The notes below the pieces were generated by a model that did not search any database, was not told the DNA's origin, and saw only the letters and a list, made by a program, of their open reading frames with translations. A program made the translations under genes and the position numbers. DNA of 25,458 nucleotides from a virus: the IMG/VR virus record IMGVR_UViG_3300037245_000418, positions 1-25,458 of that record. One strand, given 5' to 3'. How positions within the stretch are numbered: the first letter of the stretch is position 1; every line of letters starts with the position of its first letter. Shown here piece by piece: positions 982 through 4,445 of the stretch.

Positions 982-1841
982 TGGAAGAAGCAACAACAAC
1001 TGAAACAGCCGCACCGGAGACGGCAGTTACCGAGACAGCAGCACCGCCTCAGAGTTTCATAGAGACGGACGGTACTTTTAAAGAGGGATGGCAAGATGTC
1101 TACCTCACAGAAGACCAGCGGGCTAATGCTAGAGTAGCAGGTGGCAGAGTAACAAGCGTACAGAATCTGCTTGATACCGTGATAAACTCAGATAAGATGA
1201 TTAGCGGTGACAAGATCCTCAAACCGTCTGACAGCTTCGGCGACGAAGACTGGGACGCCTACCACAGAGCAGGCGGATTCACTGGCGAAGTAATACCGAT
1301 GGTTGCCCCAGAAGGCTTACCGGACGGCGTGTGGAGCGACGACAGAGCGACTGCGTTCTCAACATTGTTCAATGAATTGAAGTTGAGTCCAAAGCAGCAG
1401 GCGGGCATAGCAGAGGCATACAACGCTGATCTTGCCCAACAAGTGACTGACATGGGCAATGATAATGAAACTAACAGTGCAGCAGTCAAAGCAGAGTTGT
1501 TAGCAGAAAAAGGAAATGCTTATACTCAGTTCATGCACAACGGAAACTTCGCAGTTGAAAAGGGCATGGACGATGCTGACCACAAGCAAAGAGTAATAGA
1601 TAAGTTTGGCAGTGATGTTGACTTTATCCGCATGATGGGTAATCTCGGCAGTCAGTTCAATGAGTCTGGTTCAGTACCGACGGCGGCAATGGCTGATACG
1701 CCAGCAGATAAAATGACACAGATAAACGCAATACATGCTTCTGAAGCGTTCTTAAAACCATTACATCCAGATCATAAAAGCACTATGGCGACATTAACAA
1801 GATTATACGCAGAAAATGCAAATATTAAACAACCTGCATAA
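981..1841 (+). CDS. Capsid scaffolding protein, 286 aa
   Basis: The protein organises coat subunits during procapsid assembly and would be lost from the mature head. Evidence: a Thr/Ala/Glu/Pro-rich disordered N-terminus (1-35), then SFIETDGTFKEGW and, after a helical stretch, KMISGDKILKPS followed by EDWDAYHRAGG. This order is typical of podovirus scaffolds of the 'phage capsid assembly' type. A helical, Gln/Ala-rich middle and a C-terminal helix follow. It sits directly before the major capsid gene. The start overlaps the upstream stop and has AAAGGG about 8 bases before it. The stop codon lies in the loop of a 6-bp hairpin (1832-1847). Confidence 0.88.
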   Translation: MEEATTTETAAPETAVTETAAPPQSFIETDGTFKEGWQDVYLTEDQRANARVAGGRVTSVQNLLDTVINSDKMISGDKILKPSDSFGDEDWDAYHRAGGFTGEVIPMVAPEGLPDGVWSDDRATAFSTLFNELKLSPKQQAGIAEAYNADLAQQVTDMGNDNETNSAAVKAELLAEKGNAYTQFMHNGNFAVEKGMDDADHKQRVIDKFGSDVDFIRMMGNLGSQFNESGSVPTAAMADTPADKMTQINAIHASEAFLKPLHPDHKSTMATLTRLYAENANIKQPA

Positions 1842-1847
1842 GCAGGT
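1832..1847 (+). promoter_or_regulatory. Hairpin with the scaffold stop codon in its loop
   Basis: ACCTGC (1832-1837) pairs perfectly with GCAGGT (1842-1847) around the tetraloop ATAA, which contains the TAA stop of the scaffold gene (1839-1841). It is the first of a series of hairpins leading to the capsid gene. It may influence ribosome release or readthrough, or mark the 5' edge of a structured leader; this role is inferred. Confidence 0.5.
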
Positions 1848-1984
1848 CGTGTTTGTGGGATACCCTTCTTCGGAAGACCCCAAGCATGGTAGTGTTCTAC
1901 CCGCTTAACGGCGTAAGTAGAGAAGACCCAATAGGATACCCTTCTCGATTAAACGTAAACGATTTTAATTAGAAGGTAACTATT
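1842..1984 (+). ncRNA. Structured 5' leader of the major capsid gene (candidate RNA element)
   Basis: This 143-base gap has no ORF and carries several hairpins in a row: CTTC-TTCG-GAAG (1865-1876, a UUCG tetraloop closed by C-G); GGTAG-TGTT-CTACC (1888-1901); CTTA/TAAG (1904-1917); and GAGAAG/CTTCTC (1920-1925 with 1941-1946). The segment GGATACCCTTCT occurs twice (1858-1869 and 1934-1945), and AAGACCC also occurs twice. CTTCT 1941-1945 can alternatively pair with AGAAG 1971-1975, which is part of the capsid Shine-Dalgarno. A translational switch or an RNase-processed leader is plausible but inferred. Confidence 0.5.
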
Positions 1985-2956: not shown

Positions 2957-2964
2957 ATATTAAC

Positions 2965-2999
2965 AGGGCGGCGGTTAATTAGTATGCCGGTTAAGCCCT
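2965..2999 (+). terminator. GC-rich hairpin after the capsid gene
   Basis: AGGGC (2965-2969) pairs with GCCCT (2995-2999), with a possible inner GGC/GCC pair. A short AT-rich stretch (AAATTTTAA) follows and then the ribosome site of the next gene. It could be a weak or partial terminator, or an mRNA processing or stability hairpin. No proper U-tract is present, so termination is uncertain. Confidence 0.45.
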
Positions 3000-3017
3000 A
3001 AATTTTAAGGAACTATT

Positions 3018-4394: not shown

Positions 4395-4401
4395 CTTTAA
4401 C

Positions 4402-4425
4402 GGGAGCGGGTTTCGGCTCGCTCCC
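4402..4425 (+). terminator. Strong GC-rich hairpin between head genes
   Basis: GGGAGCG (4402-4408) pairs perfectly with CGCTCCC (4419-4425), and the stem can be extended inward by G-T and G-C pairs around TTTCGG. No U-tract follows; ATATCTTAAGG, carrying the next ribosome site, comes directly after. It is therefore either a partial terminator or a processing or insulating hairpin rather than a classic rho-independent terminator. Confidence 0.6.
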
Positions 4426-4445
4426 ATATCTTAAGGAATAATATC

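Follow-up and report, generated by a model that had tools for sequence, protein, structure and literature searches.

The window analysed in this computational study is a stretch of 25,458 nucleotides from an IMG/VR virus record (IMGVR_UViG_3300037245_000418, positions 1 to 25,458), and the capsid gene and the parts of its leader described below lie on the + strand. The gene at 1985-2956 is firmly assigned as the major capsid protein gene by its matches to PF19821 (E 1.8e-42) and PHROG 3437, major head protein (E 7.5e-51). The capsid Shine-Dalgarno (SD) sequence AGAAGGU (1971-1977) lies 8 nt before the ATG, and an SD-like sequence was found ahead of the capsid start in all relatives analysed. 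Between the end of the upstream ORF at 1841 and the start of the capsid ORF at 1985 there is a gap of 143 nt (1842-1984), analysed here as the capsid leader; its length agrees with a first-pass annotation of this DNA. That annotation had placed the feature at 1832-1984, of which 1842-1984 is the gap and 1832-1841 belongs to the upstream gene. Its description of the operon as otherwise gapless was overstated, since further gaps of 61 nt (2957-3017, 3' of the capsid gene) and 51 nt (4395-4445) are present. Right after the capsid gene, at 2968-3002, a second conserved small structure, AGGGC-GG-CGGUUAAUUAGUAUGCCG-GUUAA-GCCCU, was observed; it is present in ten near relatives, where for example GGGC/GCCC is replaced by GGUC/GACC and CGGU-GCCG by CGAC-GUCG.

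Analysis of the leader confirmed the features listed in the first-pass annotation, with a series of hairpins at 1832-1847, 1865-1876, 1888-1901, 1902-1913 and 1920-1946. The first of these (ACCTGC/GCAGGT, 1832-1847) spans the stop codon of the upstream gene; it occurs in some near relatives only and lies outside the conserved domain described below. The second is CTTC-TTCG-GAAG with a C(UUCG)G loop. Two direct repeats were found: GGATACCCTTCT lies at 1858-1869 and again at 1934-1945, and GAAGACCC lies at 1873-1880 and again at 1922-1929. CTTCTC at 1941-1946 can pair with GAGAAG at 1920-1925; alternatively, CCTTCT at 1940-1945 can pair with AGAAGG at 1971-1976, and this second pairing is lengthened by GATTAAA/TTTAATT to about 13-15 bp. 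The predicted fold of 1832-1995 was better than that of all 200 dinucleotide shuffles (z -4.47), mostly due to the hairpin that includes the SD. The folding energy of the 97-nt multi-hairpin part alone was unremarkable compared with shuffles (z -0.17); energy alone is therefore insufficient as proof of the fold, and the proof is supplied by covariation.

Relatives were collected by capsid searches that gave 11, then 28 and then 79 loci from the window's clade and its outskirts, and by a separate search that gave 80 loci of the HTVC010P type; cultured Pelagiphages and others were taken in from annotated phages. The window's clade (clade A) is represented by 51 distinct leaders after removal of one duplicate, with capsid identity down to about 53%. 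No capsid relative was found in the bacterial genomes searched. In two loci (L027 and L028) the capsid gene is preceded by a different leader, in which a promoter-like site (TTGACA...TATATT) comes before other hairpins. Tiny hypothetical proteins annotated in the capsid leaders of L032 (1395-1484) and L035 (324-416) are probably miscalled structured RNA.

Comparison of the leaders revealed one fold, consisting of the hairpins P1, P2, P2b and P3, that is common to clade A and to the HTVC010P-type Pelagiphages, although the capsids of the latter are about 27-31% identical. P1 (1848-1888) has an outer stem UGGG/CCCA (1856-1859 with 1879-1882), a 5x2 internal loop and the apical hairpin CUUC-UUCG-GAAG (1865-1876). 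The apical loop is UUCG in the window and often GNRA-like elsewhere, and a flanking extension (CGUGUUU/AAGCAUG) was found in the window's near relatives. P2 (GGUAG-UGUU-CUACC, 1888-1901) and P2b (CGC-UUAACG-GCG, 1902-1913) are followed by an A-rich linker (1914-1919). The last residue of the linker, A1919, lies opposite G1947 at the base of P3, and both residues are near-invariant in both clades (A and G, respectively, in 45/46 and 35/35 leaders). P3 (1920-1946) is formed by GAGAAG (1920-1925) and CUUCUC (1941-1946), an internal loop of A1926-C1927 against AUACC (1936-1940), and an inner CC/GG.

The 5x2 internal loop of P1 recurs in P3 in a circularly permuted arrangement. In P1 the 5-nt strand AUACC (1860-1864) is opposite A1877-C1878, with GG on its 5' side and C on its 3' side; in P3 the module returns as part of a direct repeat, with its 5-nt strand at 1936-1940. 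Across the relatives the 5-nt strand follows the pattern A/G-N-N-A-C, so that the pattern is kept and not each letter. An exact search for GGATACCCTTCTTCGGAAGACC in viral contigs gave no match, this loop being a peculiarity of the window.

The covariance model R1 was built from 17 leaders, none of them from the window's subclade, and it matched the window at 1855-1947 with 37.4 bits (E 3e-6). R1 matched 48/51 clade-A leaders, the other three being matched by model R2, and it also matched leaders from the HTVC010P search, with E down to 6e-7, directly before the capsid start. Conservation and covariation of the stems in relatives had been set beforehand as the check on the first-pass annotation, and the outcome was strongly positive: two-sided compensatory changes were found at 23/25 pairs (289 cells) in 48 leaders and covariation at 20/25 pairs in 41 mostly distant sequences, in alignments that were fitted to the model and hence favour the structure. 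In the 48 leaders 97.4% of cells are paired; none of 500 shuffles came close to this value, and slid registers of the same alignment gave 36-49%. An independent MAFFT alignment (A5) analysed with RNAalifold recovered P2, P2b and P3 with compensatory changes. Tree-based nulls were generated by redistributing substitutions over the branches of a capsid-protein tree, and P1, P2, P2b and P3 each lie beyond nearly all of them. Compensatory changes occur at every outer and inner pair of P1 (0/400 nulls), all five pairs of P2 covary (0/400 nulls), and all four pairs of P2b covary, with 97.9% paired and 99.4% in the mostly distant set.

A pairing of CUAC (1897-1900) with GUAG (1917-1920) is preferred over P2 when the single sequence is folded; it was rejected as a consensus as P2 covaries across relatives and this pairing breaks, as observed in L019, L024 and L025. 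GUAG or GCAG comes after P2 in the window's near relatives, and the CUAC/GUAG pairing is lost in distant relatives.

The domain was found at most once per phage genome searched, with one match each in 10/13 records. When 2.9 million viral contigs were scanned with the P3 pattern in a capsid-blind manner, 23 contigs were obtained, all of which contain the domain; the capsid gene follows directly in 22/23 and the last contig is truncated. None of the eight bacterial matches to the P3 pattern had a significant model match to the domain. Extension of the family to the phiVC8, K300, ZP6 and Manatee Spring phages is not claimed, as R2 gave no match to them; by eye, their leaders (L047, L048, L042, L043, L032 and L033) have hairpin pairs with GUAGC- or AYAAY-type loops that resemble the twin loops.

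This distribution bears on the possibility that the leader is a metabolite riboswitch, in which the P1-P3 domain would be an aptamer for a small molecule reporting on the infected cell. The element was found solely ahead of a structural gene and not with metabolic genes, which makes this reading rather improbable, even though the conserved junction (the A-rich linker and the A.G at the base of P3) is aptamer-like and coupled to a translational platform, and marine phages do have riboswitches, as in the case of the glutamine riboswitch (PMC9004378). The loops vary in sequence, and twin loops would suit a protein at least equally well.

A further hairpin, P4 (1940-1976), is defined by the complementarity between the 3' strand of P3, which reads CCUUCUC in the window and commonly CCUUUCC, and the strand of the SD, AGAAGG or GGAAAGG. 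P4 pairs CCUUCU (1940-1945) with AGAAGG (1971-1976) together with GAUUAAA/UUUAAUU, and in the relatives the helix is likewise lengthened by GAUUAA.. with ..UUAAU upstream of the SD. P4 covers the SD. Since P3 and P4 have strand 1940-1946 in common, only one of them can exist at a time. P4 was predicted in 50/50 analysed clade-A leaders (mean z -3.5; window z -3.2), with a median energy of -12.6 kcal/mol against -5.6 kcal/mol for P3, and cognate strands pair better than swapped strands. For the covariation test the SD was placed by sequence alone, as placement by best pairing introduces a bias. P4 was 79.9% paired against 65.6 ± 3.1 in tree-based nulls (0/1000); its covariation was reached by 8/1000 nulls, and slid registers fail on covariation. 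Constraint on the SD itself leaves much of the SD core of P4 with hardly any variation. Enforcing P3 was predicted to open the SD in 48/50 leaders, with a median penalty of about 10 kcal/mol. Both competing pairings proposed in the first-pass annotation (1941-1946 with 1920-1925, and 1941-1945 with 1971-1975) are kept across relatives. Of the functions it suggested, which also included capsid autoregulation and RNase cleavage, a translational switch is well supported by the covariation of the stems and by the conservation of both exclusive pairings.

The strength of P4 differs between subgroups. From the listed values, P4 is weaker in HTVC010P-type leaders (n=25, mean z -1.7) and weak or missing in a distant subgroup with GUAGC loops (n=12, mean z +0.75). 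A riboswitch-type expression platform exclusive with the domain was accordingly found in clade A and not in the GUAGC subgroup, and the SD platform is not universal. These differences suggest either a domain of greater age or generality than the SD platform, or a platform that differs in these leaders. With regard to an RNA thermometer, the SD does lie inside P4, and a complex upstream domain is conserved as well.

Two readings that do not involve translational switching were weighed against the P3 and P4 pairings. Stabilising or processed leaders occur on capsid mRNAs of other phages, and the hairpins could likewise protect the capsid mRNA or be cut by a host RNase. Such a role in stability would call for hairpins but not for a mutually exclusive pair, one member of which is locked to the SD, and P4 is only about 13-15 bp long, which leaves an mRNA processing or stability element as a quite improbable explanation. 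Still less credence is given to a put-like RNA, in which tandem hairpins would act on the elongating RNA polymerase against pausing or termination in the structural operon. The put RNAs are about 70 nt long, consist of two stem-loops and act in cis just downstream of early promoters (PMC9378689). The leader lies inside a structural operon, no promoter-like site above chance was found upstream of it in the window, R2 gave no match to HK022, and the conserved pairing between P3 and the SD would be left unexplained.

Taken as a whole, the leader is probably a cis-acting RNA switch controlling capsid translation, with the P1-P2-P2b-P3 domain as its sensing or binding part. Comparison of sequences establishes the conserved fold, the exclusive pairings, the site before the capsid gene and the single copy per genome searched. 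In the proposed mechanism P4 would be the OFF conformer and the default, with the SD buried, and P3 the ON conformer, with the SD free. For the bare RNA, P4 is predicted to be the more stable state. P3 is completed about 30 nt ahead of the point at which P4 can close and would form first during transcription; something must then stabilise the P1-P3 domain for capsid translation to be on. We infer this direction, ON when P3 is held, and likewise the existence and nature of an input, which would most likely be a phage-encoded or host protein recognising the twin 5x2 loops of P1 and P3. As a counterpoint, the predicted gap of about 10 kcal/mol is wide for the two states of a switch, unless folding is under kinetic control or the twin loops contribute considerable stability. 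In addition, conservation of the 5-nt loops lies in their pattern and not in each letter, which falls short of what many metabolite aptamers show.

The position of the upstream stop codon is relevant to a purely kinetic or ribosome-coupled form of the switch, in which upstream translation or transcription speed alone would set P3 against P4 without a ligand. The stop codon lies inside the domain in 37/76 scorable leaders and may couple the fold to upstream translation; its typical place is the P2 loop for HTVC010P-type leaders, and eight clade-A leaders have it in the 5-nt loop of P1. In these eight leaders (L106, L052, L061, L071, L069, L080, L053 and L063) the TAA stop itself contributes to that 5-nt internal loop. 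The stop codon of the window and of 38 further leaders, however, lies upstream of the domain, and the conserved twin loops and P2/P2b would be needless for pure kinetics. Despite the head start of about 30 nt that P3 has over P4, this kinetic or ribosome-coupled form of the switch appears unlikely.

Within the preferred reading of the leader as a switch, autogenous control is a special case in which the input is named: the capsid protein or a neighbouring assembly protein would bind the twin loops and tune capsid translation to assembly demand. The strict tie of the element to one gene, its single copy per genome searched and the two copies of one loop module, which would suit a dimeric or multimeric binder, speak for such control. 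It is nonetheless somewhat doubtful, as binding to P1 and P3 would favour an open SD and hence activation, whereas classical autoregulation is repression, and the more distant PF19821 phages have no model-detectable copy. An equally tentative proposal is that the leader represents a new class of sensing RNA, in which two circularly permuted 5x2 modules would read a phage or capsid-assembly signal and turn on capsid translation in a large group of aquatic podoviruses, HTVC010P among them.

A phage has to produce capsid proteins by the hundred and with correct timing; for tailed phages, to our knowledge, little is known about control of the major capsid gene at the RNA level. A search of Rfam 15 with the window and 12 related loci gave no match at gathering score, with weak chance matches only at permissive thresholds, and no description of this leader RNA was found in the open-access papers searched. 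An uncatalogued conserved RNA domain with an anti-SD platform offers a directly testable model for the timing or dosing of capsid synthesis, and the 81-sequence family model is suitable for deposition and for the annotation of many metagenomic phages.

Among known systems, the leader resembles translational riboswitches with an anti-SD platform in that the last strand of a folded upstream domain is also part of an SD-burying hairpin, giving two exclusive conformers; it differs from them in having no Rfam match, in occurring only before the capsid gene and once per genome searched, and in its permuted twin loops. Like operators of the ribosomal-protein type, it is a structured leader that a protein probably reads, and it precedes a single gene, that of an abundant assembled protein. 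As expected of an autogenous operator, the element was found only before the gene concerned (22/23 capsid-blind contigs); unlike the ribosomal-protein-type operators, its domain appears to open and not to close the SD. The HK022 put RNA is likewise a short cis-acting element of tandem hairpins in a phage transcript, but it is an early element close to its promoter and acts on RNA polymerase (PMC9378689), and the leader model has no match to HK022. The glutamine riboswitch likewise exemplifies cis-regulation by RNA in phages that infect aquatic bacteria; it belongs to a known family, is located before a tmRNA gene in marine phages (PMC9004378) and has no sequence or structure match to the leader. 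Translational switching is a known way of working, whereas the RNA family, its location before the capsid gene of tailed phages and the twin permuted loops appear to be new.
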